From contig NZ_CP120374.1 of NCBI RefSeq assembly GCF_029892065.1, positions 620,001-684,000 on the forward strand: a stretch of 64,000 nt of DNA. The letters run 5' to 3'. Shown piece by piece: positions 10,015 through 50,236 of the stretch (the first letter of the stretch is position 1; each line of letters begins with the position of its first letter). Made by a program: the position numbers and the translations under genes. The notes under the pieces were generated by a model. That model ran no database searches and was not told the origin of the DNA. It was given only the letters and a program-made list of their open reading frames with translations. The stretch comes from Sinorhizobium garamanticum (GTDB taxonomy: Bacteria > Pseudomonadota > Alphaproteobacteria > Rhizobiales > Rhizobiaceae).

Positions 10015-10321
10015 TGGAATTGGGGCACAATCGCCTTGAACCGGCTCGCCCCCGACCCCTGGCTGATTTTCTCAAACCATTGATAGGTATGCATGCGATG
10101 TGGACGGTAGCGCCCTCTAAGCCAAGGGGCGTTGGCATGACAGACACGAAAAACTCAGTTCAAAGCGGTAGGTAACGCTCTGAAGATTTGTCGGTAAGGA
10201 CATAAAACATGCTACCGCCCGCCCAACGTTTAGTTGAACATCGTGGAAATTCAATTTTTTGCCTGGAAATTCTTTTCGAAATCACACTACGTTGCTGGGG
10301 CAACTTCTTGGAGAGCAGCGC
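10015..10321. other. Intergenic between AbiEii and the ABC-3C system
   Basis: About 307 bases, clearly more AT-rich toward the right end (TTCAATTTTTTG near 10250-10261). It presumably holds the promoter of the ABC-3C operon. No regulator site recognised. Confidence 0.4.
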
Positions 10322-33907: not shown

Positions 33908-36112
33908 TCACGATGCGCCGTGATCGCGAGCGGCCTTGCGCGCGACGATCGGCACCGGTGGTTCGCTGTCGAGACCGAAAAGGGCCGCAACGCGTTGCAG
34001 TCTCTCGGCGGCGACGCCCGTCAGGGGACCGGGCGCCTCCAGCACTTGCCGAAGCGCGGCGAAGGCCGCCCGGCGTTCCTTGCTTCCTTCCGGCAGCAGC
34101 TTAGGAAGCGCCGCGAGCGCGGCCTCCTCGTCGATCAACAGCATGAAGTATTGCGCGCGCATCAGCGCCTTGAACTCGGCAAGTGTCAATTGCTTGGCTG
34201 CGGGATGGGAGCGCCGGAGCCGACGGACCGCCTCGAAGCCGCGCTCGTCGGCACCGCCGCGCGCCATACCGACGAAAAGGAGCGCCCTGGCGAGAGCCTC
34301 GCGAAGGCCACCCTCGGGCATCGCGGCCTTGAGCTCAGCGATCCGCGTATCCACGAGCGCCTGATGAAGCAGGCTTTTCGCGGCCTTGCGCGGCGGCCGG
34401 GAGGATTTCGTATCGATGCCGAGCGCAGCCTGGAGGGCGGAGGCTCCGTAGATCGTCTGGAAGGTCTGCTCCGAAAGATGCTCGGCCGCCCGACGCCAGG
34501 CCTCCAGACCGTCGACGATCTGACGAGACGCGGTTCCCTGCAGCGCCAGGAACGGGTTGTCCGAGGCGGTCGGCTTACGGTTTTCACGGACATGCTCTGC
34601 GCCGGCATCTATCCACGCCATGAAGGGGTTGCTGGAGCCGAACAGTTCATACTGGAGACGCAGCGGATGCATGCGTCGCATCGCCTCGGCCATCGGCAGT
34701 GTCGCCATAGCCCTGATCGCGGGCTGCAGATAGGTGCGGTAAAGCGCCAGGTTGATCTCCGAGACCTTCGCCGCGGCAGCGAAGCGGCGCTCGTCCTCCA
34801 AATCGTTGCCGCCGAGCGCGCGGATATCGTCAAGCGTGCGCGCCTCGCAACGCATGACCCATTCGCCAGCCACGAGGTCCCGCCCCTCGGCAACATCGCT
34901 GGCCGGCTTCAGCACCGCCTCGTAAAGGCCGGGCGGCAGCACATCGATCAGGTCGATGTTGGAGGCAAACTCGTCGTGCTCCTTCCGGGCGACGCCGGCC
35001 GAAACGAAGATACCGAGGTGCCCGATCTTCTCGTGAACGGTGTAGACGATGGTCTGGCCGTGTGCGCGGATTTCGTCAACGCTGTCGTAAAGATCCAGAA
35101 TCCAGTCGAGCGCCTGTTGCGGTGGGGTGATATTGTCACCCTTGGAGCAGAATACGACGATCGGCGAGCGGATGTTGCGCAGATCGACGGCGGTGCCGTC
35201 GGAGGTGCGTATCTCGCCTGTGGCGAGCTTGTTGCCAATGAAGAGTTCGTCGACGATGAACTGCATCTCCTCGGCGTTGAGCGTCACATGCCCTCCCCAC
35301 CAGCGTTCGAAGCCGAGATAGCGATCCGCCTCCGTGTCAATCTTCGAATAGAGATTGTACTGCTTGGTCCAGAGCGTGTTGGCGGGATTCTGGTTCTCGA
35401 AGTTCTGCACCAGCCAGGCACCGTCGAATATGCCGGCGCCGAGATCGCTGGCGAGCGCCGTGAGCCAACTGCCGCCCAGCAGGCCTCCCGAATAGCGCAT
35501 CGGATACTGCCCCTTCACGCCGGCCCAGTAGGAAAGAGGGGAGCCTGCAATGATGATCGGGCCGAAGAGTTCCGGGCGGAGCGCAGCAAGCATCATCACA
35601 GCCCAACCCGCCTGACAATTGCCGATCACGCATGGCTTGCCGTCGGCGCCGGGATGGCGGGTAATCACGGTTTCGAGGAACACTGCTTCGGCACGGGCGA
35701 TATCCTCGATCGTCTGGCCTGGGACCGGCTCGGGAAGAAACCCGATGAAATAGCAAGGGTGGCCGGCCTTCAGTGCAACGCCGATTTCGCTGTCGGCCTT
35801 GAACCCGCCGATGCCCGGTCCATGACCCGCGCGCGGATCGACAACGACAAAGGGCCGCTTCAACGGGTCGACCACGATGCCTTTGGGCGGAACGATGCGC
35901 ACGAGCGCGTAATTCACCGGCCGGGCGAGCGTGCGGCCGTCCAGAAGGAGTTCTGCCTCGTAGTTGAGCACGTGGGGCGCGACGCGCGCGGTGTGTTCCT
36001 CGTACTGTTCCGCACGCTGCCGCATGATGTCGAGAAACAGGACCGAACGCTGCCAGGCATCGATCGAATAGGCGAAGACGTCTGCGAATGTCGGGATGGT
36101 GGGCTGAGGCAT
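33908..36112 (-). CDS. DUF3141 protein, PhaC-like alpha/beta hydrolase
   Basis: 734 residues. The N-terminal half is an alpha/beta hydrolase related to polyhydroxyalkanoate synthases: VVVDPRAGHGPGIGGFK, then a nucleophile elbow with cysteine (GNCQAGWA), an acid in VFCSKGDNITPP and a histidine in EKIGHLGIFVS. The C-terminal 300 residues are helical and lack known motifs. No signal peptide. It is the first gene of the operon with pta, ackA and fabI, and the conserved FixK site at 36190 lies 77 bases upstream. Possible roles include a hydroxyacyl-CoA thioesterase or transferase; I cannot name the substrate. Genes of this kind recur beside pta-ackA in proteobacteria, as I recall. Confidence 0.85.
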   Translation of the reverse strand: MPQPTIPTFADVFAYSIDAWQRSVLFLDIMRQRAEQYEEHTARVAPHVLNYEAELLLDGRTLARPVNYALVRIVPPKGIVVDPLKRPFVVVDPRAGHGPGIGGFKADSEIGVALKAGHPCYFIGFLPEPVPGQTIEDIARAEAVFLETVITRHPGADGKPCVIGNCQAGWAVMMLAALRPELFGPIIIAGSPLSYWAGVKGQYPMRYSGGLLGGSWLTALASDLGAGIFDGAWLVQNFENQNPANTLWTKQYNLYSKIDTEADRYLGFERWWGGHVTLNAEEMQFIVDELFIGNKLATGEIRTSDGTAVDLRNIRSPIVVFCSKGDNITPPQQALDWILDLYDSVDEIRAHGQTIVYTVHEKIGHLGIFVSAGVARKEHDEFASNIDLIDVLPPGLYEAVLKPASDVAEGRDLVAGEWVMRCEARTLDDIRALGGNDLEDERRFAAAAKVSEINLALYRTYLQPAIRAMATLPMAEAMRRMHPLRLQYELFGSSNPFMAWIDAGAEHVRENRKPTASDNPFLALQGTASRQIVDGLEAWRRAAEHLSEQTFQTIYGASALQAALGIDTKSSRPPRKAAKSLLHQALVDTRIAELKAAMPEGGLREALARALLFVGMARGGADERGFEAVRRLRRSHPAAKQLTLAEFKALMRAQYFMLLIDEEAALAALPKLLPEGSKERRAAFAALRQVLEAPGPLTGVAAERLQRVAALFGLDSEPPVPIVARKAARDHGAS

Positions 36113-36189
36113 AAAAATCTACTCCTCGGCTTGACCGAAGTTCGGTCCCAATCTCTGATCGCATATAAAGCAATGCTGCCTGCCGAGCA

Positions 36190-36203
36190 TTGATCTCCAT
36201 CAA
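36190..36203. promoter_or_regulatory. FixK/FNR site upstream of DUF3141-pta-ackA-fabI
   Basis: TTGATCTCCATCAA is a perfect TTGAT-N4-ATCAA palindrome, 77 bases upstream of the DUF3141 start. The spacing suits an activator site for the minus-strand operon. Strong candidate for control by the FixK-like protein at 38645-39289 or another FixK. Confidence 0.75.
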
Positions 36204-36298
36204 AAGCAACCGAATCGGACTGAACGGCAACCGGAGGGCCTCGAAATGCGTGGCTAATAAACTGGCTCACATGGGGGCTTGTGGCCGTCCCGTGTCCT

Positions 36299-36312
36299 TT
36301 GATTGTGATCAA
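36299..36312. promoter_or_regulatory. FixK/FNR site upstream of the block scar
   Basis: TTGATTGTGATCAA is a perfect site. It matches, in position and flanks (ATCAATGCCAGC), the site at 41881 upstream of the 2-TM gene, so it belonged to the promoter of the deleted block copy. Confidence 0.72.
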
Positions 36313-36643
36313 TGCCAGCCGCATGTTTTTGCGTATCATCCTATTTGAACAATCAGTCGTGACCTTTCCTGCTTGCTTGGGAATTAAGCGTTTTCGCCGC
36401 GGCAATTGAATTCTCGCCCGGCCTTTAGAAGGGGGAGCGCAGAGATGGAACAATTGTGCTGCGGTCAACCAATTGCCGCCGTTCATCACCGCACCGGGGC
36501 AGACGGACATCCTTTTCAATGTGATGAACGTCTTTGTCCTGTCCTGCATCGCCTACGAACGCGATCTCGGCCCGAGCACCGAGGCGATCGTGCCGTTCAT
36601 CGACCGCTTCGATCCGGACGACGAGCGTGGTCGCCGATTAGAG
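36313..36643 (+). pseudogene. Scar joining the start of a 2-TM gene to the end of a DUF2950 gene
   Basis: The left part (to about 36545) parallels 41895-42146: the same leader GAGCGCAGAGATGGA and then PPFITAPGQTD(I/V)LFNVM. At about 36550 the sequence switches to a match with 50145-50236: DLGPSTEAIVPFIDRFDPDD, ending in a stop. In the window those two ends are 8 kb apart, bracketing the HlyD-SulP-PPK2-DUF3300-DUF2950 block. So this is the residue of a second copy of that block after an internal deletion. The open frame here (from a TTG at 36473) is not the frame started by the ATG at 36445, which confirms a dead locus. Confidence 0.8.
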
Positions 36644-36670
36644 GAGGATGAGGGGCGCATTCGCCTTGAG

Positions 36671-36684
36671 TTGACGCGCATCAA
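36671..36684. promoter_or_regulatory. FixK/FNR-type site at the CAX gene
   Basis: TTGACGCGCATCAA matches TTGAC-N4-ATCAA exactly. Its last base is the first base of an ATG at 36684 that opens the CAX frame, so if functional the true CAX start is further downstream. It also lies at the end of the scar ORF; chance occurrence is possible. Confidence 0.5.
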
Positions 36685-36713
36685 TGCGCTGCAAGCAGTG
36701 TAGCCGCAGTTTC

Positions 36714-37907
36714 ATGGGCGCATTCTGCGGCGTGCGCCTGAGACCGGAGGACGATCCGATTCGCGATTTCCACGATAGACGCTCCATTGTGCCGCCGCCA
36801 TCCGCGGCCAACGCTGCAAGGGCCGCTCTGAGTGAGCTTCGGCGAACCCCTCTCCTTGTGCTTATCCTCTTCGTTCCCGCCGTCATTCTCCTGGAGCAAG
36901 TGTCGCCCGAGGCGCACACCTTGCTGTTCTTCCTGTCGGTCGCAGCGATCGTGCCGCTCGCGGCACTGCTGAGCCGCGCGACCGAGGCCGTCGCGGCGAA
37001 ATTGGGCGACACCCTCGGCGCCTTGCTCAACGCCACGCTCGGCAATCTGACCGAACTCGTGATTTCGCTCGCGGCCCTGCATGCGGGCCAACATCTATTG
37101 GTCAAGGCGTCGATTGCGGGCGCGATTGTCACCAATACGCTGTTCATGCTTGGCGGCGCGTTTCTCGTCGGCGGTCTCAAGCATCACCTGCAGGAGTTCA
37201 ACAGGGTTAGCGCACGCTTTCAGGCTAGCCTGTTGTTCCTTGCCACGATCGCCATTCTGGTCCCCTCCCTGATCAGCGAAGTGGACCGCGTCCCTGCCGG
37301 CACCTTCTCACAGCAACTGAGCTTGGGTCTCTCGCTGCTCCTCATCGCCGTCTATGGCCTTGGCATGCTGTTCTCCCTGAAGACGCACCGGGAGCTTTTC
37401 GCCAGCGGCGGCCATGTCGACGAGGATGAGAAACCGTGGCCGCTTGCGGTCGGGATCGTTGTGTTGGTTGGCGTCACGCTCTTCGTCGCGATGGTCAGTG
37501 AGATCTTCGTCGGCTCAGTACAGGTCGCTGCTCAACGTCTCGGGATGACGCCTGCCTTCGTCGGGTTCATCGTCGTAGCCTTAGTGGGCGGAGCTGCGGA
37601 AATGACAACCGCTTTCTCGGCGGCGCGCGCCAATCGCCTCGATCTCAGCGTCGGCATCGCATTGGGCAGCGCCGCGCAGATCGCGCTTTTCGTCGCCCCG
37701 GTCCTAGTGCTCGTCAGCTACTTTGTTGGTCCGGAGCCGATGTCCCTGCAGTTCTGGCCCGGAGCGGTCGCAATGATGCTGATCGCAACGATGGCCGCAA
37801 CGCTCTTGTCTAACGGTGGGCGCGCAGCTTGGTATGCCGGCGTCATGGCGTTGGCGGTCTATGCCATTTTCGGGCTCACGCTGTTTCTCTTGCCGCCATC
37901 GGCGTGA
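36714..37907 (+). CDS. Calcium/proton exchanger (CAX family)
   Basis: About 397 residues with eleven or so hydrophobic helices. Both cation-binding repeats are visible: GNLTELVISLAAL in the first half and GGAAEMTTAFSAARANRLD in the second, with a short acidic loop (DEDEK) between halves. CAX proteins exchange cytosolic Ca2+ (or Na+) for protons. Start is uncertain: 36684 overlaps a FixK-like site, 36714 is the next ATG, and GTGs at 36732 and 36789 are also in frame; none has a good ribosome site, so a leaderless or short-leader transcript from that site is possible. Confidence 0.82.
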   Translation: MGAFCGVRLRPEDDPIRDFHDRRSIVPPPSAANAARAALSELRRTPLLVLILFVPAVILLEQVSPEAHTLLFFLSVAAIVPLAALLSRATEAVAAKLGDTLGALLNATLGNLTELVISLAALHAGQHLLVKASIAGAIVTNTLFMLGGAFLVGGLKHHLQEFNRVSARFQASLLFLATIAILVPSLISEVDRVPAGTFSQQLSLGLSLLLIAVYGLGMLFSLKTHRELFASGGHVDEDEKPWPLAVGIVVLVGVTLFVAMVSEIFVGSVQVAAQRLGMTPAFVGFIVVALVGGAAEMTTAFSAARANRLDLSVGIALGSAAQIALFVAPVLVLVSYFVGPEPMSLQFWPGAVAMMLIATMAATLLSNGGRAAWYAGVMALAVYAIFGLTLFLLPPSA

Positions 37908-37940
37908 GTTCGCAGGCATCCGCCACTCACGGTCTTGGCC

Positions 37941-38045
37941 CCTAAAGCGCTTCGCGTTCAAATGTATTTCACGCACCGCGCTTTATGTCTTTGTTTTCAT
38001 GTCGTCATCCAAAACCGCTGCGCACTTTTGGGCGACATGCATTAG
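37941..38045. repeat. Sinorhizobium-type intergenic repeat
   Basis: AAAGCGCTTCGCGTTCAAA ... CACGCACCGCGCTTT forms a hairpin with AAAGCGC/GCGCTTT arms, followed by CCGCTGCGCACTTTTGGGCG and a terminal CATGCATTAG. I recognise this as a recurrent intergenic element of Sinorhizobium genomes. It includes the stop codon of the K+ channel gene and lies between two convergent genes, so it may also terminate both transcripts. Confidence 0.5.
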
Positions 38046-38527
38046 TCCTGCCCGGGTGTCCTCGTGAAGTACAAACGCTGGATCACGGCCATCATCAGAG
38101 CCGTTGCCCATCCGAAGATGATCCAGCCATTGACGGCCTCGAAAGTGGCAACCTGGCGCCAGTCTCTGCCGAGAACGATGTCGCCATAGCCAACCGTCGT
38201 GAAGGTGACGGTCGAGAAGTAGAGCGCCTCTTCAAAGTTTGGCAGCGCCTGCGCAAGATAGTAGAAGGTTGCCCAGAGCACGACATCAAGCGCGATTGGA
38301 GCGATCAGGTAGATTATCCAGACGACGGTCACCAGCATCGGGTAGCGCAGCAGCAAGTCTCGGCGTTCTTTTTCCAACCTGCGAAAAACACCAAGTCCGG
38401 CGGACATGAAAGATGCTTGAACGGCGACTGTTGCCGCAATGAGACCACACGCTATGGCCAGCCGAAATAGCACCCACGCCTCCACCACGGCGGATCGACC
38501 AGAACGCGCTATTGCCGCCACCGGCAA
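38042..38527 (-). CDS. Two-TM potassium channel family protein
   Basis: 161 residues. The selectivity filter TTVGYGD follows a pore helix (EALYFSTVTF) and is flanked by hydrophobic helices. An additional pair of N-terminal hydrophobic helices (VLFRLAIACGLIAATVAVQ, MLVTVVWIIYLIAPIALDVVLW) gives about four membrane segments. No cytosolic RCK domain, so gating is not evident. It may set membrane potential alongside CAX and MscS in this region. Confidence 0.85.
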   Translation of the reverse strand: MPVAAIARSGRSAVVEAWVLFRLAIACGLIAATVAVQASFMSAGLGVFRRLEKERRDLLLRYPMLVTVVWIIYLIAPIALDVVLWATFYYLAQALPNFEEALYFSTVTFTTVGYGDIVLGRDWRQVATFEAVNGWIIFGWATALMMAVIQRLYFTRTPGQD

Positions 38528-38644
38528 TGTAGCAAAGACTGCCTGATCGGTGAATAGTGTCGTCAGGGGGCGCTAAGTTCCGCCTGGCCCGTTGCCAAAA
38601 AGTGCCTTCCGCCCCTGCAGCACAAAGATCGATATTGGGCATCA

Positions 38645-39289
38645 CTAAAGACACAAGTTCTGAAGCGCGCGATACTCAAGGATCTCGATGCCGCGAGCAC
38701 CGAGCAAGTTGATAATGCGCTTGTTCTTCAGCTTCGTAAGCGAACGCGAAACGGTCTCGATCGTCAACCCGAGATAGTCGGCGACATCGACGCGGGGCAT
38801 GGATAGTTCGAGCCTATACGAATGACCCGAACGATCGGACATTTCGAGTAGGAATGCCGCGACTCTTTCGACGGCGCTTTGGCGGCCAATGACCAATTGG
38901 TGTTCCTGAGCAGACAAGAAGTTCTCCAACACCGCCGGCAACAAACCCTGCCAGATAAGCGGATCCTCGTGGAGGCTGACGCTCTTTACACCAGTGACAC
39001 CTATCGCTTCTGCGTTGGAGCGGTGCAGGTCCTCATTTTGCAGACCGAACCAGTTTCCTCCGAAATGGAATGCAAGAATTTGTCGTCGGCCGTTCGCAAG
39101 CACGCGGTACACGCGAACAGCCCCGAATTCTACCCGGTAGGCCTGACCGGCCCTTTCCCCGGAAGAGTAAATGCATTGTCCGTTGACGAAGCTGCTGATC
39201 GGCATCGACTCGACTTGCCCCTGCGTGAGCGGCCCCATGGGGACGGCACCTATGAACCTCCCCGGAGAAGCCAATATTGACGTATGCAT
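38645..39289 (-). CDS. Crp/Fnr family regulator, FixK-like
   Basis: 214 residues. A cNMP-binding-like beta barrel (residues about 25-110, GERAGQAYRVEFGAVRVYRV) precedes a long dimer helix and a Crp/Fnr helix-turn-helix (MPRVDVADYLGLTIETVSRSLTKL). The E-x2-SR recognition pattern in IETVSRSL predicts binding to TTGAT-N4-ATCAA half-sites. The N-terminus lacks the four-cysteine iron-sulfur cluster of FNR, so activity probably depends on expression or an upstream FixLJ-like cascade, as in rhizobial FixK. Several matching sites lie within 10 kb, making it the likely local regulator. Confidence 0.88.
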   Translation of the reverse strand: MHTSILASPGRFIGAVPMGPLTQGQVESMPISSFVNGQCIYSSGERAGQAYRVEFGAVRVYRVLANGRRQILAFHFGGNWFGLQNEDLHRSNAEAIGVTGVKSVSLHEDPLIWQGLLPAVLENFLSAQEHQLVIGRQSAVERVAAFLLEMSDRSGHSYRLELSMPRVDVADYLGLTIETVSRSLTKLKNKRIINLLGARGIEILEYRALQNLCL

Positions 39290-39428
39290 TATTCGACTCC
39301 CAAGACTGTGCCCCTTGCCTTACAAGGATCCTGATCCAGTGGACCTTCCTTGTATTCTGCGGGCTGAACAGCGAGCAGACCGTTCGGGCGTCGGCTCCGA
39401 CGTCCAGGCAAAGCGCCAAACTTTCTAG

Positions 39429-39704
39429 TTAGATGAGACCTTTCGCCGGCCCGAGCGCTTGCTCAATCTCTGCCGCCAGACTGTCTACCAAGCTCCTGAA
39501 CTCCGCGCGGCGCTCCTCGCGTACATGAAAAGGAAGCTGATCGGCGTGAGCAAGCGCGTTTTCAGCGGCTGCGAAGTCCTCACACATCCCCCTGAAGCTC
39601 TCGTCGCGGATCGACAACTCCCTGATCTGCAACGTGCGTGCCGGAAACCGCCGCAAGGCCGCTGCCAGGCCGTGTTCCTCGTCACTCCCTGATCGCGCGT
39701 TCAT
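39429..39704 (-). CDS. Conserved small hypothetical protein
   Basis: 91 residues, mostly helical and charged, no signal peptide: AALRRFPARTLQIRELSIRD, then ESFRGMCEDFAAAENAL and SLVDSLAAEIEQAL. The pattern recalls a family of short cytosolic proteins widespread in rhizobia with unknown function. GGAGGCGGAG precedes the ATG at 39704; the frame upstream is open but unsupported. It is divergent from the TPR regulator gene. Confidence 0.6.
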   Translation of the reverse strand: MNARSGSDEEHGLAAALRRFPARTLQIRELSIRDESFRGMCEDFAAAENALAHADQLPFHVREERRAEFRSLVDSLAAEIEQALGPAKGLI

Positions 39705-39849
39705 TTCGCTCCGCCTCCGAATTCGAAATGAAATACAACTATAATTGATCTCTGTAATATATATTGCGCTTTGCCCGGGTGGGGACGTAAGATACGGGAG
39801 CTTACAGTACCGCTGGACACAAGCTTGCGTTGTGTTGATGGGGGCGGAC

Positions 39850-41601
39850 ATGGTAGCAGACCAGGGGGGCGTCCGGGTCGAACCGACAACTGCTCTACCC
39901 ACCGACGCGGAAATCCTTGCACAACTCGATCGAATTCGGTTCAGCACCGAGTTCGATGCGCCGGACCGTGCCCGCAAGTTCCTGGCCTACGTGATTGAGG
40001 AGACCGTTGCAGGTCGGGCCGACCGTATAAAGGCGTATTCGATAGCAACCGAGGTCTTCGGTAGAGACTCCTCTTTCGACGCTCAAACTGATCCAGCCGT
40101 GCGGATTGAAGCGGGCCGTATTCGTCGCGCGCTCGAACGCTACTATCTCGTGTCGGGCCGCAACGACCCGATCATGATCAGGATACCGAAAGGCGCCTAC
40201 GTGCCAACGTTCGAAAGGCGCGTCGACACGCAGAGCGCGGCTGACCTCGGCCCCTCTGTAAGCGCCAGATCGGATCCTTCCGTTCAACATTTTCGACGAC
40301 GGATTTGGTTCGGAATTGCGGCGCTTGCTTTAGCCCTTGGCGGCCTGGCAGCAAGTGCTCTTCTTCGCCATGATGTCACTGCAGAGAGCGGCACGAATAC
40401 CGGCCGCGTTCGGCCCAACATCCCGAAGCTGGTTGTCGCTCCGTTTGAGGACCTCTCCGGAACATCGCAATCGGCGATGATAACGCGGGGACTCGCTGAC
40501 GAGGTTGTCAGCAAAATCGCCAGGTTCAAGGAGATCATCGTCGTCACCCGCGAAAACCCCGATGACTCGTCGGACACCGACGACGGACCGGCCTATGCGC
40601 TGGAGGGGCGGGTCCGGATCGATGGCGAAAGGCTTCGGCTTGGGATAAGACTTGTACTACTGTCCGACGGGTCGGTGATGTGGACAAACAACTATGACGA
40701 GAGCTTAGCAACGCATAAAATCATCGAACTGCAAGAGAAGGCCGCCGCCGCCGTGGCGACCGCTGTGGCACAACCCTATGGCGTTGTTTTCCAGGCGAAT
40801 GCCACGCAGTTCACGCAGTCAATTCCGGACGATTGGGAAGCATATGCGTGCACCTTGGCCTACTATGGTTATCGCAGCGATTTGAACCCGCAAACGCATG
40901 CGTCCGTTCAGGAATGCCTTCAGCATGCGACCCGCCAATTTCCGAACTACGCTACGGCTTGGGCGCTTCTGTCAATGACCTATATCGACGAGCTCCGTTT
41001 CCGGTATCGCCTTGATCAGTCGTCCCCGGTGTCGTTGGAGCGGGCGATCGAGGCAGCGGTACGCGCTGTGGAACTGGATCCCCAGGACGTGCGCGCCCTG
41101 CAAGCACAGATGCTCACTCTTTTCTTCCGGGGCGAAGTTGATGCTGCCTTGGCGGTGGGGGCGCGCGCGTTTGCCATCAATCCTAACGACACTGAACTCG
41201 CCGGCGAATATGGTTTCCGGCTTGCCCTGTCGGGTCAATGGCGTCCCGGTTGCGAGCTCTTATCGGAAACCGTCGCGCGGAACCCAGGCCCGGTAGGATA
41301 TTTCGAGGCGGCCTTGGCGGTCTGCGCCTATATCAGAGGCGATTACGTGGCCGCTGAGCGATGGGCGCACTTGGCCGACCTTCGCGCCAATCCGATTTAT
41401 CGCGTCATATTGCTTGCCATTCTTGGGAAGCTCGGCAAGTCGGACCAGGCACACGAAGAACAGAAATGGCTGGAAACGAACGCACCAGGCTTCCTCGAGA
41501 ACATCCGAAAGGAGGTCGCTTTGCGAATTCGTCGTCCAGAGGACCAGCAGCACTTCATCGAAGGTTTGCGCGAGGCGGGCATATCGGTCCCCGAAAATTG
41601 A
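39850..41601 (+). CDS. Membrane TPR protein with N-terminal DNA-binding-like domain (adenylate cyclase-type regulator)
   Basis: About 583 residues. The N-terminal 100 residues (ARKFLAYVIEETVAGRADRIKAYSIATEVFGRD and RIEAGRIRRALERYY) form a helical domain found in rhizobial 'adenylate cyclase' TPR proteins and likely contact DNA. A single transmembrane helix (FGIAALALALGGLAASALL) follows, then a TolB-like/FlgO-like region (LVVAPFEDLSGTSQSAMI to about residue 290) and TPR repeats to the end. No cyclase catalytic residues are present. Such proteins are seen as one-component signalling proteins. Start is uncertain among ATGs at 39838 and 39850; the second follows GGGGGCGG. Confidence 0.7.
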   Translation: MVADQGGVRVEPTTALPTDAEILAQLDRIRFSTEFDAPDRARKFLAYVIEETVAGRADRIKAYSIATEVFGRDSSFDAQTDPAVRIEAGRIRRALERYYLVSGRNDPIMIRIPKGAYVPTFERRVDTQSAADLGPSVSARSDPSVQHFRRRIWFGIAALALALGGLAASALLRHDVTAESGTNTGRVRPNIPKLVVAPFEDLSGTSQSAMITRGLADEVVSKIARFKEIIVVTRENPDDSSDTDDGPAYALEGRVRIDGERLRLGIRLVLLSDGSVMWTNNYDESLATHKIIELQEKAAAAVATAVAQPYGVVFQANATQFTQSIPDDWEAYACTLAYYGYRSDLNPQTHASVQECLQHATRQFPNYATAWALLSMTYIDELRFRYRLDQSSPVSLERAIEAAVRAVELDPQDVRALQAQMLTLFFRGEVDAALAVGARAFAINPNDTELAGEYGFRLALSGQWRPGCELLSETVARNPGPVGYFEAALAVCAYIRGDYVAAERWAHLADLRANPIYRVILLAILGKLGKSDQAHEEQKWLETNAPGFLENIRKEVALRIRRPEDQQHFIEGLREAGISVPEN

Positions 41602-42039
41602 GTCTGAACAAGCCTCTGCCGCAACGCCGCGTCGCTCAGGTGCAGTTTCGGCGGCCATTGAACTGAAGGACGCCGTCTCCCGCATGCTCCGCCTCGAGCG
41701 TGGCGGCAAGTGCGCCTCATGCAACGCACTCTTGCAGATGGTACGCCGCCTGCGGCCACGTTGCAGTAACATACCGTAGCATACGTCATTCGACGTTCAC
41801 CATCCGTGCGTCTCCTCTTACAGATGCCATCGAGGCAGTTCACCATCGAGGTAATCGAGCGACCGTGTCACGTGTCGACATTGACTGCGATCAATGCCAG
41901 CGGGGCACATTTCGCGTATCATTATATTTGAATAATCAAGATGATCTGTCCCGAGCTCTCTCTTTTTCTACTTTGGAATTCAGCGCTTTCGTCTAGCAAT
42001 TGAGTTCACGGCCGGCCTTCAGCAAAGAGGAGCGCAGAG
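41602..42039. other. Upstream region of the 2-TM/HlyD/SulP block
   Basis: 438 bases with no gene supported. It contains the FixK-like site at 41881-41894 and the leader that is duplicated at 36313-36445. Confidence 0.5.
41881..41894. promoter_or_regulatory. FixK/FNR-type site upstream of the 2-TM gene
   Basis: TTGACTGCGATCAA, identical to the 14-mer at 47561. It is 146 bases upstream of the ATG at 42040 and conserved in the duplicate leader at 36299, where it is TTGATTGTGATCAA. Confidence 0.75.
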
Positions 42040-42537
42040 ATGGAAGAGTCGTTGCATCCGGCCGCAGTTGACCATTTGCCACCTTTCATCACCGCGCCGG
42101 GGCAGACGGACGTCCTGTTCAACGTGATGATCGTCTTCGTCCTGTTGCTAATCTTCCTGATCGGTATCCTGTACCTGCGGCTGCACGCGCTGCCCGAACA
42201 CATGGCACATGGCGCCAGCAAAGTGCAGTTGCAGATTGTCGGCGCTTTGGCGCTGATCGCGCTCTTCACCCACAATCATCTGTTCTGGATCGCCGCCCTG
42301 CTGCTCGCCATGATCGAATTCCCGGATTTTTCATCCCCGGTCAGATCGATGGCCCGTTCGCTGTCGAAGATTGCCGGTCGCGACGAGGAGACGGACGAGG
42401 CAGGAACAAATGCGATCGAACCAGCGGCGAGGCCACTCGATCCCCAACCAAGCAAGCCGCCACCGGACCCGCCGCAATGGGCGCCGATCGAGATGACGCC
42501 CGCCACGGGGCACGAAAAGGTGGAGCGGAGGGGCTGA
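42040..42537 (+). CDS. Small two-TM membrane protein
   Basis: 165 residues. Two hydrophobic segments (VMIVFVLLLIFLIGILYL and IVGALALIALF with LFWIAALLLAMIEF) follow an N-terminus with PPFITAPGQTDVLFN. The C-terminal 50 residues are Pro-rich and charged (PQPSKPPPDPPQ) and probably cytosolic or periplasmic and disordered. AAAGAGGAG precedes the ATG. It stands three bases before the HlyD-like gene, so the two probably act together in one membrane complex. A 5' fragment of a paralogue survives at 36.4 kb. Confidence 0.75.
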   Translation: MEESLHPAAVDHLPPFITAPGQTDVLFNVMIVFVLLLIFLIGILYLRLHALPEHMAHGASKVQLQIVGALALIALFTHNHLFWIAALLLAMIEFPDFSSPVRSMARSLSKIAGRDEETDEAGTNAIEPAARPLDPQPSKPPPDPPQWAPIEMTPATGHEKVERRG

Positions 42538-42540
42538 ACC

Positions 42541-43770
42541 ATGCTGGAATTCCTGATCTGCTCGCTGCTTACCATCTTTCCTGACTACCTGTTCCGCCGC
42601 TATGTCCAGGGCAAGCGCATCGGTCGCGAAATCAATCTCTATTCAATGTGGTTCGAGCTGCGCTACGGTATCACCGCCTGCGTGATCCTCACCGTGTCGC
42701 TGATCACGATGATCTTCTACTTCCACCCCTCGACCACCAACGTCACCGCCGTGTTCCGTACCGTCACGATTTTGCCCGAGGCGAATGGCCGCGTGGCCGA
42801 GGTCTATGTCGACCTCAACGAGAAGGTTGCGGCCGGCACCCCGCTCTTCCGCCTCGACAACACAGAGCAGCAGGCCGCGCTCGAGACTGCCCGCCGGCGC
42901 GTGGCCGAAATCGACGCCGAGACGACCGTCGCCCACACGGAGCTCGCGTCTGCCGACGGCCTCATCGCACAGGCGGAGGGCGCTTACCTCCAGGCGCTGA
43001 ACGAGCTTGAGACGCAGGTCGAATTGAACCAGCGCAACCCCAACATTGTCGCGAAGCGGGAAATCGAGCGGCTGCAGGTCGCCGCCGACGGTCGCAAAGG
43101 CGCGCTCGATGCCGCCGTTTCGAACAAGCAGACGCTGGAGACGAAGATCGCCTCGCTGCTGCCGGCGCAGAAGGCTAGCGCCGAGGCGGCACTCGCCCAG
43201 GCTCAGGTCGACTTGGACAAGACGACGGTGCGTGCCGGCGTTGCCGGCACCGTGCAGCAATTTACCCTTCGGCCTGGCGACATCGTCAATCCGATGATCC
43301 GCACCGCCGGCATCCTCGTGCCCGATCAGCGCCGCATCGGACTGATCGCCGGCTTCGGCCAGATCGAGGCGCAGGTGATGAAGGCCGGAATGATCGCCGA
43401 GGCGACCTGCATCGGCAAGCCCTTCACCATCATCCCGATGGTCGTTACCGAGGTGCAGGACGTCATCGCCGCTGGCCAGTATCGGCCAACGGACCTGCTC
43501 GTCGACGCCCAGCAACTGGCACGCCCCGGCACACTGACGGCTTATCTGGAGCCGCTCTATCAGAGTCAGTTCAGCGGCATTCCGCCGGGAAGCAGTTGCA
43601 TCGCCAACGCCTATACCAGCAATCATGACGCGCTCCATGAACCCGGCATCAGCACGCCACGCTGGCTGTACCTACATGTCATCGACGCCGTCGGGCTGGT
43701 GCACGCGGCGATCCTCCGGCTGCAGGCGCTGCTCTTGCCCGTCCAGACGCTCGTCCTTACAGGTCACTGA
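42541..43770 (+). CDS. HlyD family membrane-fusion protein
   Basis: 409 residues. A short N-terminal membrane segment (ITACVILTVSLITMIFYF) is followed by the lipoyl-like half (VTILPEANGRVAEVYVDLNEKVAAGTPLF), a long coiled coil (about residues 110-230) and the second half (VRAGVAGTVQQFTLRPGDIVNP). This is the architecture of EmrA/HlyD adaptor proteins linking an inner-membrane pump to an outer-membrane exit. No ATPase or MFS pump gene is adjacent; the 2-TM partner just upstream is the likely membrane subunit, as in two-gene DUF-HlyD exporters. The SulP transporter gene begins 16 bases downstream. Confidence 0.85.
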   Translation: MLEFLICSLLTIFPDYLFRRYVQGKRIGREINLYSMWFELRYGITACVILTVSLITMIFYFHPSTTNVTAVFRTVTILPEANGRVAEVYVDLNEKVAAGTPLFRLDNTEQQAALETARRRVAEIDAETTVAHTELASADGLIAQAEGAYLQALNELETQVELNQRNPNIVAKREIERLQVAADGRKGALDAAVSNKQTLETKIASLLPAQKASAEAALAQAQVDLDKTTVRAGVAGTVQQFTLRPGDIVNPMIRTAGILVPDQRRIGLIAGFGQIEAQVMKAGMIAEATCIGKPFTIIPMVVTEVQDVIAAGQYRPTDLLVDAQQLARPGTLTAYLEPLYQSQFSGIPPGSSCIANAYTSNHDALHEPGISTPRWLYLHVIDAVGLVHAAILRLQALLLPVQTLVLTGH

Positions 43771-43786
43771 TCCGGAGGCAACCGGC

Positions 43787-45487
43787 ATGGGGCTGACCCT
43801 TCCTCGCCTACCGCTGCTTGCGAACCTTGCCGGCTACCGGGCGAGTTGGCTGCGCAGCGATGTCTCCGCCGGGCTCGCGATCGCCGCGGTCGGCTTGCCG
43901 AGCGCCATCGCCTATCCGGCCATCGCCGGCCTGCCGCCGGAGACTGGCCTTTACGCCAGCATCACACCCTTGATCGCCTATGCCCTCGTCGGTCCCTCGC
44001 AACGCCTGATCGTCGGGCCGGACGCCGCGACCATGACCGTGCTGGCTGCGGTGCTTGCCACGGTCTATGCGGTGCCTGGCGTCACCGCGGATCGGGTCAC
44101 GGTGGCGGCGTTGCTGGCGCTCGCAGTCGGCGCGCTGTGTCTGATCGCCCGCGCGGTGCGGCTCGGCGTGCTCGCGACCTTTCTGTCGCGGCCGATCCTG
44201 ATCGGCTTCTTCGCCGGCATCTCGCTTTCGATCCTGATCGGTCAGATAGATCGGGTCACCGGCATCGACATCGAGGCTGATGGCCTAATCGCTCCAATCC
44301 TCGAACTTATCGCCAAGGCGGCCGCGATCCACTGGCCGTCGCTCGCATTGGCGGCCGCGTCATTCGCGCTGCTGCAGGCAGCGCGCATCATGCAATCGCC
44401 CATACCCGGGCCGGTACTGGTTGTCGCGCTGTCCGTGCTCTTGTCCGCCCTTTTCGATTTCGAAGGGCACGGCATCGCCGTCGTCGGCGACATCCCCGAT
44501 GGCCTGCCGTCGTTGACGCTGCCGTCGATCGCGGGCCTCCCCTTCCAGTCGCTCCTGCTCGGCGCCGGCGCCATCTTTCTGGTGAGCTTCGGCTCCGGCA
44601 TCATCGCCGCCCGCAGCTTCGGGGCCAAGGGCGGCTACCTGGTCGATCCCAACCGCGAACTCGAAGGCTTCGGCGCGGCGAACATCGCTGCCGGGCTGTT
44701 CGGGACTTTTCCCGTCACTGCTTCAGACTCGCGCACGGCAGTGAACTTCAGCGTCGGCGGCCGGTCGCAGATCGCGAGCATCGTGGCGGCCGCGGCCCTG
44801 ATGGCGGTTCTCCTGTACTTCGGCGATGTGCTGCGCATCCTGCCGATCCCGACGCTCGGCGCGGTGCTGGTCGCAACCGCGCTCAGCCTCATCGATATTT
44901 CCGCACTCAAGGAGATCTGGCGTATCAGCCGCATCGAATTCGTCTTCGCGCTGATCGCGATGTCCGGGCCGATCAGCTTCGGCGTTCTGGAAGGCGTGGT
45001 CACAGCAATCGCCGCAACGCTGGTCTACGTATTGCACAAGACCATGTTTCCGCGCGACGCCCTGCTCGGCCGGCTCGTCGGCCGTGACGGCTTCTACAAG
45101 CTCCACCGCAACCCGGCGGCGCGGCCGGTGCCCGGCCTTGCCGTCTTCATGGTCCAGGGCAGCCTGCTGTTCTTCAACACCGACTATGTCCGCCAACGCC
45201 TGCGCGCCGTCACCGACGCGCTGCCCGCCGATACCCGCTGGTTTGTCATGGACGCGAGCGCCATCGCCCAGATCGACAGTTCCGCAGCCGCCATGCTCGA
45301 TGAGGTTCACGACGATCTCGGCAGGCGCGGCATCGCGCTTGCGATCGCCGAGCTGCATTTCGAAGCGCGCGAAATCCTCGAACGAGCCGGCGTGATCGCG
45401 AAGATCGGCCCCACGATGATCTTCGAGGATCTCGATGACGCGCTGGACGCCTTCGAGAAAAGCGCTGCGGAAACAGCCGCGCCGTAG
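43787..45487 (+). CDS. SulP family anion transporter with STAS domain
   Basis: 566 residues: a conserved SulP core starting LRSDVSAGLAIAAVGLPSAIAYPAIAGLPPETGLYAS, about eleven hydrophobic helices, and a C-terminal STAS domain (from about residue 440; WFVMDASAIAQIDSSAAAML). Substrate could be sulfate, bicarbonate or another anion; STAS may sense nucleotides. CCGGAGG precedes the ATG at 43787. Part of the block with HlyD upstream and PPK2 downstream. Confidence 0.9.
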   Translation: MGLTLPRLPLLANLAGYRASWLRSDVSAGLAIAAVGLPSAIAYPAIAGLPPETGLYASITPLIAYALVGPSQRLIVGPDAATMTVLAAVLATVYAVPGVTADRVTVAALLALAVGALCLIARAVRLGVLATFLSRPILIGFFAGISLSILIGQIDRVTGIDIEADGLIAPILELIAKAAAIHWPSLALAAASFALLQAARIMQSPIPGPVLVVALSVLLSALFDFEGHGIAVVGDIPDGLPSLTLPSIAGLPFQSLLLGAGAIFLVSFGSGIIAARSFGAKGGYLVDPNRELEGFGAANIAAGLFGTFPVTASDSRTAVNFSVGGRSQIASIVAAAALMAVLLYFGDVLRILPIPTLGAVLVATALSLIDISALKEIWRISRIEFVFALIAMSGPISFGVLEGVVTAIAATLVYVLHKTMFPRDALLGRLVGRDGFYKLHRNPAARPVPGLAVFMVQGSLLFFNTDYVRQRLRAVTDALPADTRWFVMDASAIAQIDSSAAAMLDEVHDDLGRRGIALAIAELHFEAREILERAGVIAKIGPTMIFEDLDDALDAFEKSAAETAAP

Positions 45488-45550
45488 TGCCGTCCTCCGC
45501 GGCGCCGATATCGCAACGGTTGAAAAGAAGCAGCCAGATGGGAGAGCAGC

Positions 45551-46429
45551 ATGGTCAAGAACGGCAAGAACGGCAAAAAGGATAAGGCAAAGAATAAAAA
45601 CAAGGACAAGAACAAGGAAAAGAACAGGAAAGTCGCCGAGTTGCAGGAGACGGTGACCAACTCGAACGGCAACTATGCCAAGGAACTCGCCCGATTGCAG
45701 GTGGAGATCGCCCACCTGCAAGCCTGGGTGAAGAAGAGCGGGGCGAGGATCGTCATCGTCTTCGAGGGGCGCGACGCGGCCGGCAAGGGCGGCGTGATCA
45801 AGCGCATCACCGAGCGCGTCAGCCCACGCGTCTTCCGCGTCGTCGCCCTGCCGGCGCCGACCGACCGGGAGAAGACCCAGATCTACATGCAGCGCTATAT
45901 CCAGCAGTTGCCGGCGGCCGGCGAGATCGTGATATTCGACCGCTCCTGGTACAATCGGCCCGGCGTCGAGCGCGTGATGGGCTTCTGCACCGAGGAGAAA
46001 GCGCGGCGTTTCCTTGAGCTTGCGCCCCGTTTCGAGGCGGCGATGATCGAAAGCGGCATCCTCCTGCTCAAATATTTCCTCGACGTCAGCGAAGAGGAAC
46101 AGGAAAAGCGCTTCCGCCAGCGCATCGACGACCCGCTGCGCCAGTGGAAACTAAGCCCGATGGACGTTGAATCCTATCGCCGCTGGTGGGACTATACGCG
46201 CGCCTATGATGAGATGATCCGCATGACGGACACCGACTTTGCCCCTTGGTGGATCGTGCCGTCCAACGACAAGAAGCGCGCGCGCATCAACTGCATCTCG
46301 CACATGCTTGCCTCGATACCCTACGAACGGGTGAAGTTCGCCGAACCCGAACTTGGCAGGCGCCAGAAGCGGCCCGAAGACTACGCTGTGGATACCCATA
46401 CCCGCCGGATAGTGCCGGACGTTTTCTGA
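45551..46429 (+). CDS. ppk2: Polyphosphate kinase 2
   Basis: 292 residues. A Lys-rich tail (residues 3-27) precedes the PPK2 domain: Walker A FEGRDAAGKGG at 71-81, lid region, Walker B FDRSWYNRPGVERVMGF, and the C-terminal DDPLRQWKLSPMD. PPK2 enzymes phosphorylate nucleoside di- or monophosphates from polyphosphate, or the reverse. The 64-base gap after SulP allows co-transcription. Basic tail may bind polyphosphate. PPK2 next to a CYTH triphosphatase gene (52.6 kb) suggests polyphosphate turnover. Confidence 0.92.
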   Translation: MVKNGKNGKKDKAKNKNKDKNKEKNRKVAELQETVTNSNGNYAKELARLQVEIAHLQAWVKKSGARIVIVFEGRDAAGKGGVIKRITERVSPRVFRVVALPAPTDREKTQIYMQRYIQQLPAAGEIVIFDRSWYNRPGVERVMGFCTEEKARRFLELAPRFEAAMIESGILLLKYFLDVSEEEQEKRFRQRIDDPLRQWKLSPMDVESYRRWWDYTRAYDEMIRMTDTDFAPWWIVPSNDKKRARINCISHMLASIPYERVKFAEPELGRRQKRPEDYAVDTHTRRIVPDVF

Positions 46430-46551
46430 ACGGCAATACCTGCTTGTCGTATTTCCCTGCTGGCGAACCGCCTGACGCGTCGCCTGCAGGGAGGCGGTTG
46501 CGGCACCCTGCAGGCCGCAAGCGCTCTCACCCGGCGGCGGCGCGCCGCGCC

Positions 46552-47022
46552 TCAGGCCTTGTCCGGCGACCAGTCGAGGAAGAAGCCGACATCACCGGGC
46601 ATGCCGCCCGGGAAATTGATGATCATCGCCTTCAGCTTGTAGCCCTGCGGCTTGCCGAAGGTCTGGTAGCGCTCGTAGAACTCCTTGGCCTTGCCCTGCA
46701 GCGTTTGCGGCCAGTCGCGATCGGCGCTGTTGATCGCACGGCCGCTGTCGGTGCAGAGCGAGGACGGGAAGCTATAGACCATGGCTTCGAATTTGCCGTC
46801 CTTGACCGCGTTCTGGACGAGGCGGCGAACAACGGCAATTTCCTGCTCCGAGACGTGTTTCTCGAGGAAATCGGCGGCAAAATCGGCGAGCTTCTGCTCC
46901 TGCATCGAGCGCAGCTTCCGCTCCTTGTCCATCTCCTCCATCTCCCGCTCGAGCATCTGCATGCGAAGCTGCTCGGCGCTGAGCGGTGCTGCACCTGGAT
47001 CGAGGTCTTTGTTTTCCGGCAT
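46552..47022 (-). CDS. Conserved hypothetical cytosolic protein
   Basis: 156 residues, no family recognised. The N-terminal half is a charged helix, likely coiled coil (SAEQLRMQMLEREMEEMDKE); the second half (QNAVKDGKFEAMVYSFPSSL, AKEFYERYQTFGKPQGYKL, IINFPGGMPGDVGFF) looks globular. No signal peptide. Start set at the ATG at 47022 with GTGGAGCACGTG before it; a GTG at 47034 is in frame. It is the only minus-strand gene in the block and is convergent with ppk2. Confidence 0.6.
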   Translation of the reverse strand: MPENKDLDPGAAPLSAEQLRMQMLEREMEEMDKERKLRSMQEQKLADFAADFLEKHVSEQEIAVVRRLVQNAVKDGKFEAMVYSFPSSLCTDSGRAINSADRDWPQTLQGKAKEFYERYQTFGKPQGYKLKAMIINFPGGMPGDVGFFLDWSPDKA

Positions 47023-47624
47023 CACGTGCTCCACTTCAAGTCAAGAGGACGAATGGCTGCTCATAGGGACGTACATAAGAGGCGCGAGCCATGCCTGACG
47101 GATGACCCCACGACAAGAGCAGTGAGGGGCAGGAGGGTAAGCCTGTCGGAATGCACCTCGGTTGAAGGTGCCCTCGTGCGCGATCGTCATGTCCCCTCCA
47201 AATCGCATGCAGTTGTTGCATTCACGCGTTTCAGCTCGTCGGGCACAGCATTGCGGTGGACGGTGTTGCGCGTTCGGTGGGACGCGCCCGCTCTACATCG
47301 GCAACTTTAGAAATGAGCAGACGGCATGTCATTGATTTGAGACAAATGCGATTTCGCCGCCTGGTCCTCCTTGGAGCTCCCGGCACGCTGACGCGTCCGA
47401 CCGGGTAGTGGACCTAAGGTGCTCGCGGCCTGCATGCCCGGCGGGCGCAGCAACCCACGAGGAGCACGGCCCACCGGCGTTCAGGAAATACTGGTTGAGT
47501 GGCTGTCGCCTCACCTTGAAGGCACCTGCGCCACAAGGGCGCGGAGGATTTTTTCACATGTTGACTGCGATCAACGACTTCAGCCTCGGTCACGTAATAA
47601 AAGGGAGAAGGAAGGATTCGAGTA
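47023..47624. other. Divergent upstream region with FixK-like site
   Basis: About 600 bases. The right end holds the site at 47561. A weaker site-like string (TTGATTTGAGACAA, 47332-47345) has two mismatches. No gene supported inside. Confidence 0.4.
47561..47574. promoter_or_regulatory. FixK/FNR-type site upstream of the secreted micropeptide
   Basis: TTGACTGCGATCAA, an exact copy of the 14-mer at 41881. It is 50 bases upstream of the ATG of the 50-residue gene at 47625 and would drive that gene and DUF3300/DUF2950 behind it. Confidence 0.75.
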
Positions 47625-47777
47625 ATGAGCAAATTCTCGAGAATTCGCACGGCGGCGATTGCACTCTTTGCGATACTGGGCGCCTCGGCACCAGCTTCTG
47701 CGGAATTCGACTATTACGAGGGCATTGACCCAGCACAGCGACCCGCCAGGAAGCCCGCGACCATCGTTCAACCATGA
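47625..47777 (+). CDS. Secreted 50-residue small protein
   Basis: A complete short gene: ATG to TGA, 50 codons. The N-terminus is a textbook signal peptide (SKFSRIRT basic, then IALFAILGASAPASA with Ala-x-Ala cleavage), leaving a mature peptide of about 24 residues starting EFDYYEGIDPAQR. AAGGAAGGA lies about nine bases upstream of the ATG, and a perfect FixK-like site is 50 bases upstream. It precedes the DUF3300 gene by 78 bases on the same strand. Function unknown; export to the periplasm is predicted. It could be an accessory of the following DUF3300/DUF2950 proteins. Confidence 0.7.
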   Translation: MSKFSRIRTAAIALFAILGASAPASAEFDYYEGIDPAQRPARKPATIVQP

Positions 47778-47855
47778 GCCCATCCGGCGCGATGGTGCGA
47801 TGACCGTCGCGTCGCGCACCAGAATTTGGCCGCAAGGCTCTTCCGGGGGAGGAAA

Positions 47856-49250
47856 ATGGACAAAAACCAGATCCTCATGCTTTGCCGCGCCGCGGCAGTT
47901 GCGCTGGCGCTCCTTACACCTTGTAGTCTCGCGTTGGCCCAGCAAAAGGAAATACCTCCACCGCCTGCGCCGGCTGAGGCCGCACCCGAGCCGCTCAGCG
48001 ACGACGAGCTCGAAGTCCTGGTCGCCCGGATTGCACTCTATCCGGACGAGCTGGTGGCGCTCATCTCGGCCGCCTCGCTTTATCCGCTGCAGATCGTCGA
48101 GGCCGAGCGGTTCCTCGAGGCCCGCAAGAAAAAGTCCGAGCTGAAGCCGAAGGATGACTGGGACGGCAGCGTGATCTCGCTCCTGAACTATCCCGAGATC
48201 GTCAAGATGATGAGCGAGGATCTCGAATGGACGCAGAGTTTCGGGGAGGCGATCGCCAATCAGCAGAAGGACGTGCTGATCGCCATCCAGCAATTGCGTG
48301 ACGAGGCGGTCGCCAAGGACATCATCAAGACGGACGACAAGATCAAGGTGGTCGAGGAGGGCGACAATATCGTCATCCAGTCGGCGAGCCCCGAGACGAT
48401 CTACGTGCCGCAATATCCGCCTGAAATGCTCTACGAGCCGGACTACGTGCCTGCGCCGATCAGCTATTACGAAGAGCCCTATCCCGCCTATTGGTATCCG
48501 GGCGCAGCCTTCTTCGCCGGTGCGGTCACCGGCGCGATCTTCGGTGCCATTGTCGACTGGGACGACTGGGGCGTCTGGGGCGGCCGCTGGGACGGCGACA
48601 TCGATGTCGACTGCAACAAGTGCTTCAACAACATCGACTTCGACGGCAAGGTCAACTGGAACGACATCGACTGGAAGAATGTCGACCGCAGCAAGATCAG
48701 CTTCGACCGCGACCAGCTCCAGAAGTTCGACCGCACCAACATCAAGAACAACCTCAAGGCCAACGGCAACAACAACCTGCGCAACCGCGCCGCCGCGATC
48801 AATCGCGACCGCCCGCAGGCACGCCCGGGCGGCGCCGGCCAGCTCAAGGACGTGCGCAAGAGCACCCTCGAGGGGTTGAAGGCCCAACCGAGACGGGATG
48901 CCGCGGCGCGGCCGGCCGCACGGCCTGGCGGCGGACAGGCGGTGGCCAAAACGAAATCTGGAGGCGGAAAGCCGAGCGTCAATCGCCCCAAGGGCCAGAA
49001 GTCCTCGCAGGTGAACCGGCCGGCCGGCAAGAAGAAGATGGCCTCCAAGGCGCAGAACCGGCCGAAGAAGCCGTCGGGCCTCGGCAATGTCAATTCCGGC
49101 CGGCGCGAGGTTGCCTCCTCGCGGCGCGGTGGCCACAGCATGGGTGGCGGTCATCGCGGCGGTGGGCGGCCCCAGATGAGTCGCGGCGGCGGCAGGCCGC
49201 CGATGCACCGTGGCGGCGGGGGCCGTGGCGGTGGTGGACGCAGGCGCTGA
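47856..49250 (+). CDS. DUF3300 family periplasmic protein
   Basis: 464 residues. Signal peptide (LCRAAAVALALLTPCSLALAQ), then DUF3300: LSDDELEVLVARIALYPDEL, AASLYPLQIVEAERFL and ASPETIYVPQYPPE. A central acidic Trp-rich zone (DWDDWGVWGGRWDGDID) and Asn-rich stretch precede a strongly basic Gly-, Arg- and Pro-rich C-terminus (about residues 310-464), likely disordered and nucleic-acid or polyanion binding. GGGGAGGAAA precedes the ATG at 47856. It is 17 bases upstream of the DUF2950 gene; the two families are typically neighbours, so a joint envelope role is likely, though unknown. Confidence 0.85.
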   Translation: MDKNQILMLCRAAAVALALLTPCSLALAQQKEIPPPPAPAEAAPEPLSDDELEVLVARIALYPDELVALISAASLYPLQIVEAERFLEARKKKSELKPKDDWDGSVISLLNYPEIVKMMSEDLEWTQSFGEAIANQQKDVLIAIQQLRDEAVAKDIIKTDDKIKVVEEGDNIVIQSASPETIYVPQYPPEMLYEPDYVPAPISYYEEPYPAYWYPGAAFFAGAVTGAIFGAIVDWDDWGVWGGRWDGDIDVDCNKCFNNIDFDGKVNWNDIDWKNVDRSKISFDRDQLQKFDRTNIKNNLKANGNNNLRNRAAAINRDRPQARPGGAGQLKDVRKSTLEGLKAQPRRDAAARPAARPGGGQAVAKTKSGGGKPSVNRPKGQKSSQVNRPAGKKKMASKAQNRPKKPSGLGNVNSGRREVASSRRGGHSMGGGHRGGGRPQMSRGGGRPPMHRGGGGRGGGGRRR

Positions 49251-49267
49251 GCGGAGGGAGAACGGCC

Positions 49268-50236
49268 ATGACCAAACTTTTGCACACCCTTCTCCTCGGA
49301 TCGGCGCTCTCGCTTGCGGGCGGCCTTGCAAGTATCGACGCCGCCGTCGCGCAGGCGCAGCAGCCAGAGCAGGCGCAGCAACCGCCGGGCATCGACGACT
49401 ACGCCGCGGCCGAAGATCCGCCGGCCTTCGACGATCCGGCCAAAGCGGTGGAGGCCTTCAAGGCGAGGCTGGCCGCCAACGACTTCGACGGGCTGGCAAA
49501 GCTGCTAGGCCTCGATGCGGCAAAGGCGAAGACCGGCGAAGGGGCGATGGAAACCTTCGCGCTCATTCGCGAGGGGGCGGCCCGCAACGTTGTGGTGCGC
49601 GACCTTGACGAACGCAAGATCCTCGAGATCGGCGACCGCCTCTGGCCGCTGCCGTTTCCGCTCACCAAAGGTGAGGACGGCAAATGGGCCTTCGACACCT
49701 ATGTCGGGCTGGAGGAGATCGTCAACCGTCGTGTCGGCGAGAACGAGCTCGAGGCGATCGAGGCGGCGCGCGCCTATGTCCAGGCGCAGAAGGATTACGC
49801 TTCGCAGGACCGCGACGCCGACGGTGTCCTCGAACATGCCCAGAAGCTGATCAGCACCCCCGGCCAGACCGACGGCCTCTACTGGCCGGCCGAGCAGGGC
49901 GATGGCGAGAGCCCGGTGGGCGACGCGATCAGCGAGGCGGCGCTGGAGAAGGCGAAGGCGGGTGAGGGCTATTTTGGCTACCGCTTCCGCATCCTGACGT
50001 CGCAAGGCGACAACATCGCCGGCGGCAGATACGACTATGTCATCAACGGCAATATGATCGCCGGATTCGGCCTGATCGCCTGGCCGGTCAAATATGCCGA
50101 GACCGGCGTCAAGACCTTCGTCGTCAACCAGCAGGGTATCGTTTACGAGGCAGATCTCGGTCCGAGCACCGAGGCGATCGTGCCGTTCATCGACCGCTTC
50201 GATCCCGACGACAAGTGGAGCGTGGTGGCTGACTGA
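49268..50236 (+). CDS. DUF2950 family periplasmic protein
   Basis: 322 residues. Signal peptide (LLHTLLLGSALSLAGGLA ... AVAQA), then DUF2950: FDDPAKAVEAFKARLAANDF, LPLTK-like PFPLTKGEDGKWAFDT, ENELEAIEAARAYVQAQKDY, and the conserved end DLGPSTEAIVPFIDRFDPDDKW. Function unknown. The end of a second copy of this gene is present in the scar at 36.55-36.64 kb. It ends 140 bases before the MscS channel. Confidence 0.85.
   Translation: MTKLLHTLLLGSALSLAGGLASIDAAVAQAQQPEQAQQPPGIDDYAAAEDPPAFDDPAKAVEAFKARLAANDFDGLAKLLGLDAAKAKTGEGAMETFALIREGAARNVVVRDLDERKILEIGDRLWPLPFPLTKGEDGKWAFDTYVGLEEIVNRRVGENELEAIEAARAYVQAQKDYASQDRDADGVLEHAQKLISTPGQTDGLYWPAEQGDGESPVGDAISEAALEKAKAGEGYFGYRFRILTSQGDNIAGGRYDYVINGNMIAGFGLIAWPVKYAETGVKTFVVNQQGIVYEADLGPSTEAIVPFIDRFDPDDKWSVVAD

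Follow-up and report, generated by a model that had tools for sequence, protein, structure and literature searches.

Promoter-capture (promoter co-opting) deletions have been selected in Escherichia coli in the laboratory, as described in eLife 2017;6:e25100 (PMC5526668), and in the events described there a deletion takes out the stretch that separates a promoter from a gene farther downstream, a feature that they share with the locus described here. In Sinorhizobium meliloti, a 37-kb region of pSymA (SMa0631-SMa0697) is reported to be rich in FixK motifs, with the consensus TTGAT-N4-ATCAA, and to carry a Crp/Fnr regulator and an HlyD gene (PMC5596199). Genes of the DUF3300 and DUF2950 families are described as always paired, with DUF3300 upstream, and as induced in two transcriptome studies cited in Sci Rep 2015;5:16825 (PMC4653623).

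The window, a stretch of 64,000 nucleotides, corresponds to C2:620001-684000 of the Sinorhizobium garamanticum genome (6.83 Mb in three contigs; G000), placed in Sinorhizobium/Ensifer by its plasmid matches and the named loci of relatives. The segment under study is preceded by a minus-strand operon in which DUF3141 comes first and which also comprises genes for phosphotransacetylase, acetate kinase and an enoyl-reductase-like protein. Past this segment lie cax, a calcium/proton antiporter gene of the Na_Ca_ex family (family match E 4.5e-34; 36684-37907, plus strand, the ORF having its first ATG at 36684), an ion-channel gene, a regulator of the Crp type, a gene whose protein has weak TPR matches and then an intact block (42040-50236, plus strand). 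The block is composed of 2-TM, HlyD-like (weak match), SulP, PPK2, DUF3300 and DUF2950 genes, and an MscS-type channel follows. It has its own FixK-type boxes at 41881-41894 and 47561-47574. The latter, TTGACTGCGATCAA, is located about 300 bases upstream of DUF3300, and the identical 14 bases precede the 2-TM gene; the block therefore probably comprises at least two FixK-type transcription units. The same genome harbors a second DUF3300-DUF2950 pair at C2:1405608 and a second 2-TM-HlyD pair at C1:3257907, so that parts of the block are multi-copy. Elsewhere in the window, an intergenic repeat of about 105 bp behind cax (37942-38048), with 44 matches in its own genome including itself, resembles the RIME elements of rhizobia, and an AbiEii-type nucleotidyltransferase gene stands beside ABC-3C middle component (MC3) and DUF3732 genes (8926-13929), possibly forming a defence cluster.

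The remnant upstream of cax

The segment 36287-36542 aligned with 41867-42145, which contains the promoter, the leader and the start of the 2-TM gene of the intact block (score 199; BLAST 74.0%, E 8.7e-42), while 36548-36637 aligned with 50138-50232, the end of the DUF2950 gene (score 120, E 2.0e-24; BLAST piece of 88.8% over 80 columns). The best of 500 dinucleotide-preserving shuffles scored only 30 and 33, respectively. Apart from itself and these two parental stretches, 36100-36800 had no match in the window below E 0.45. In the intact block about 8.0 kb separate the parental stretches; in the remnant 5 bases do, with order and strand unchanged and the interior missing. The sequence-only reading had matched 36299 to about 36545 with 41881-42146, and the sequence from about 36550 with 50145-50236, ends that it placed 8 kb apart. 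The pairwise alignments bear out each of these statements, and similarity no better than chance, which would have spoken against them, was not seen.

The homology starts 12 bases before a FixK/FNR box, TTGATTGTGATCAA (36299-36312), which has no mismatch to the consensus and is identical in S. garamanticum, Sinorhizobium psoraleae CCBAU 65732 (G017) and Ensifer sp. IC3342 (G027), and it ends at about the DUF2950 stop. All of the parts lie on the plus strand. The putative promoter of the lost block consists of this box and a -10-like TATCAT (36334-36339), 35 bases from start to start as against 36 in the intact copy, and its core (36294-36347) extends from the box to a transcript start predicted from the spacing. 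The same kind of putative FixK promoter thus heads both the remnant and the intact copy, as had been claimed. In local alignments, the core is followed by a leader homologous to that of the 2-TM gene (36348-36444), partly kept in IC3342, a stub of the 2-TM gene start (36445-36542) and a stub of the DUF2950 gene end (36548-36641). The joint between the stubs (36538-36548) shares about 1 nt. A second FixK-like box, TTGACGCGCATCAA (36671-36684, one mismatch), occupies the same position as the box of stand-alone cax genes. A structured RNA was considered and dropped, as Rfam gave no match in 35800-42200 and the fold z-score of 36347-36646 was -0.17.

The genus set consisted of 33 genomes, including that of the window, and 28 had some match to the query. 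Only two of the 33, S. garamanticum and S. psoraleae, matched it over its whole length (85% in the latter). The joint is the same in both, apart from an extra TCCTG in S. garamanticum, which places a single deletion before their split. IC3342 has no joint and matches both flanks of a gap at 36421-36643: its leader runs directly into the sequence behind the DUF2950 stop, so the coding scar is gone while the leader and cax are kept. No further short form was found in 297 evenly drawn family genomes (14 with a match at E 1e-8, S. psoraleae and IC3342 not being among those reported) or in the plasmid collection, where none of the 84 matching records covered 80% of the query.

Taken together, 36287-36641 is best read as the scar of an internal deletion in a diverged copy of the FixK-type block upstream of cax, to which we assign a probability of about 0.85 from the sequence comparisons. 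This reading is favored by homology at both ends, collinear and on one strand with the interior gone, by the joint shared by two genomes, by the decay, by the kept promoter sequence and by the DUF2950-cax order of relatives; against it, no intact DUF3141-block-cax arrangement was seen in the genomes compared, and both S. garamanticum and S. psoraleae still have an open fusion frame. The ancestor of S. garamanticum, S. psoraleae and IC3342 would have carried a diverged, FixK-driven block (2-TM ... DUF3300-DUF2950) directly upstream of cax. An illegitimate deletion would then have fused the 2-TM gene, at codon ~30, to the final ~30 codons of DUF2950, and the gene stubs would have been decaying since, to the point of being gone in IC3342. 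The scar is most likely an ordinary deletion relic, the putative FixK promoter of which can read into cax.

The retained promoter and cax

In the three pairs among S. garamanticum, S. psoraleae and IC3342, 0, 1 and 1 of the 54 sites of the promoter core differ. As compared to the four-fold sites of cax, this conservation gave Fisher P values of 0.015, 0.0015 and 0.0012, although these pairs are interdependent and the segment is short. Between S. garamanticum and IC3342, the remainder of the leader and the spacer preceding cax have likewise changed less than the four-fold sites (P 0.00085 and 0.00016). There is no terminator-like site on the plus strand between the promoter core and cax; the promoter is kept upstream of the gene, on the same strand. 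The window contains six FixK boxes at no more than one mismatch, versus 1.31 expected. The cax-proximal box is present in S. garamanticum and IC3342 and degraded in S. psoraleae, where the distal box is perfect.

These observations raise the prospect of a promoter-capture deletion kept by selection, in which the interior loss put cax close behind the FixK promoter of the block and that promoter was kept since cax uses it. A low-oxygen operon would thus have been short-circuited, with its FixK promoter feeding cax and its dead genes being discarded, and in S. psoraleae the distal site would be the only good FixK site of cax. The core is far more conserved than the stubs, IC3342 lost the stubs and kept the promoter, and the DUF3141 operon is absent in S. 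psoraleae, so that the distal box there is not kept for that operon. However, besides the dependence among the pairs and the wider conservation between S. garamanticum and IC3342, cax has its own box in both of these genomes, and the distal promoter may be no more than an unused leftover. We therefore regard selected capture as a tentative reading, somewhat less probable than its absence. From the sequence, the distal promoter would be active and read into cax beside the FixK-like box of cax itself.

Boxes with no more than two mismatches were located within 700 bases before five of the nine other cax loci that do not stand behind DUF2950 (G001, G002, G010, G011 and the C65 locus of S. psoraleae), and none was found in the same range before cax in G012, G022, G023 and the partial C56 locus of S. 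psoraleae. At the same settings, none of the 13 cax genes behind DUF2950 had a box, the stretch scanned in these relatives being the one before cax. The cax gene of a further locus (L089, G024) also has a box. Thus, cax appears to have more than one link to FixK, and the scar provides it with a second box.

By alignment with relatives, the translation start of cax is expected near 36759. At 36759-36761 the window genome has ATT, where cax of S. psoraleae and IC3342 begins with ATG. Translation may start at an upstream in-frame ATG (36684 or 36714) or at the ATT itself; alternatively, this base may have been read wrongly in sequencing.

The probable lost block and the fate of its stubs

We counted 26 cax loci at ≥65% identity in 23 genomes, leaving out paralogues of lower identity (26-30%) and, in G014, a fragment of 43 residues; 25 of them, including that of the window, were placed together, and the 26th is G024:C18 (L089). 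In 13 of the 26, cax is preceded by DUF2950 on its own strand, the order expected of the intact ancestor. In four loci (G006, G007, G019 and G021) cax follows DUF2950 immediately, and the other nine have a gap of about 1.6-1.9 kb, i.e. one gene-length, which in the two inspected cases, Sinorhizobium sp. 8-89 (G028) and G015, holds an ORF of about 420-455 codons. In Sinorhizobium sp. 8-89, one contig stops with the 2-TM gene and a different one carries SulP...DUF2950...cax, so a full 2-TM...DUF2950-cax unit is likely there; on a single contig, such a unit was seen nowhere in the genomes examined. G014 displays the opposite outcome to the scar: immediately after the DUF2950 gene of a block comes a broken cax fragment (L075, 5576-5704), the block having been kept and cax lost.

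The sequence-only reading had proposed that a second, diverged copy once stood beside the acetate operon. An intact copy between DUF3141 and cax, which it suggested looking for in related genomes, was found in none of the 33 genus genomes, nor was an intact ancestor at the same place found in the 297 sampled family genomes; in the relatives, no more than part of the order, DUF2950-cax, is seen, and at different sites. The DUF3141-headed operon beside the scar is common to S. garamanticum and IC3342. S. psoraleae has no DUF3141 gene at its scar; of this side it retains only part of the sequence that precedes DUF3141 in S. garamanticum. The downstream neighbour of the lost copy was probably cax.

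The three short-form cax genes form one clade in the protein tree (support 99/99), with the cax behind DUF2950 of Sinorhizobium sp. 8-89 as the nearest (88/91). In the cax DNA tree the short forms are supported at 88/98, and Sinorhizobium sp. 8-89 is not their sister. The leader and 2-TM start of the remnant group with G022/G023 (87/83) and not with the window's own copy, a modest grouping in a tree with 7 of 13 inner branches open and three rows with long branches. The DUF2950 stub scores alike against many relatives and is too short to place. The lost copy was therefore probably an old, separate version of the block: a diverged second copy that lost its interior, as had been proposed, rather than a recent duplicate of the window's own block at 41.8-50.2 kb, a candidate that we rejected on this grouping.

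Two independent deletions, one in the line of S. garamanticum and S. psoraleae and another in that of IC3342, would explain why IC3342 falls outside the other two in the cax tree and has different breakpoints, and the other block of IC3342 is collapsed as well, with truncated PPK2 directly behind a truncated regulator-like gene. Nevertheless, a single early deletion, after which the scar was lost in IC3342, would account for these observations too, and we consider two events the less probable course. In that other block of IC3342 (L047, 7954-9353), fragments of the TPR-like gene lead into a PPK2 gene that is preserved from residue 117 onward, and the 2-TM, HlyD and SulP genes are absent.

The decay of the stubs bears on whether the short form is a gene of its own, conserved under selection, an outcome that would have refuted the sequence-only reading. 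The parental ATG (36445-36447) is out of phase with the rest of the stub in S. garamanticum and missing in S. psoraleae, with different length changes in each. Between these genomes, 16 of 100 sites differ in the 2-TM stub and 8 of 88 in the DUF2950 stub, rates no lower than that of the four-fold sites of cax (20 of 241), and the pN/pS of the scar is 0.69 (24 changes, one genome pair) versus 0.11 for cax. At 36494-36703, and likewise in S. psoraleae, there is an open frame that is in phase with both parent genes; an in-phase junction is expected by chance one time in three, and this open frame is probably a chance survival. With its starts broken differently, its near-neutral drift and its loss in IC3342, a new small chimeric gene is very improbable, and we dropped it. 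Equally improbable is the earlier claim that the block is a transposable unit, with the scar as a decayed insertion: its modules do occur in several copies and orders across the genus, but no pair of repeats of 18 or more bases flanks the intact block at its outer edges (whole block searched), none of the 40 window ORFs scanned (37 of the 46 listed and three others) matched a transposase family, and the joint shares only about 1 nt.

Comparison with known systems

A search of titles and abstracts, with subscription journals largely outside its coverage, found no description of this scar. The 340-375 kb stretch of S. meliloti pSymA, which is probably the FixK-motif-rich region SMa0631-SMa0697, contains relatives of cax, Crp, TPR-like, 2-TM, HlyD-like, PPK2, DUF3300 and DUF2950 and no match to SulP. 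The order of these relatives differs from that in the window, and S. meliloti showed no short form. Unlike the always-paired DUF3300-DUF2950 genes described in PMC4653623, the scar retains no more than the final ~30 codons of a single DUF2950 gene.

The scar is an ordinary but well-documented deletion relic of an already known kind. Together with the DUF2950-cax neighbours in other relatives, it provides a three-species series of block loss in which the promoter stays, with the fused scar present twice and removed once. In contrast to the laboratory-selected deletions as described in PMC5526668, it is a natural event in two or three species, promoter use is putative, and the downstream gene, cax, seems to have had its own FixK box. 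The locus would open natural promoter capture by deletion to testing in harmless laboratory rhizobia; otherwise, it represents ordinary genome decay.
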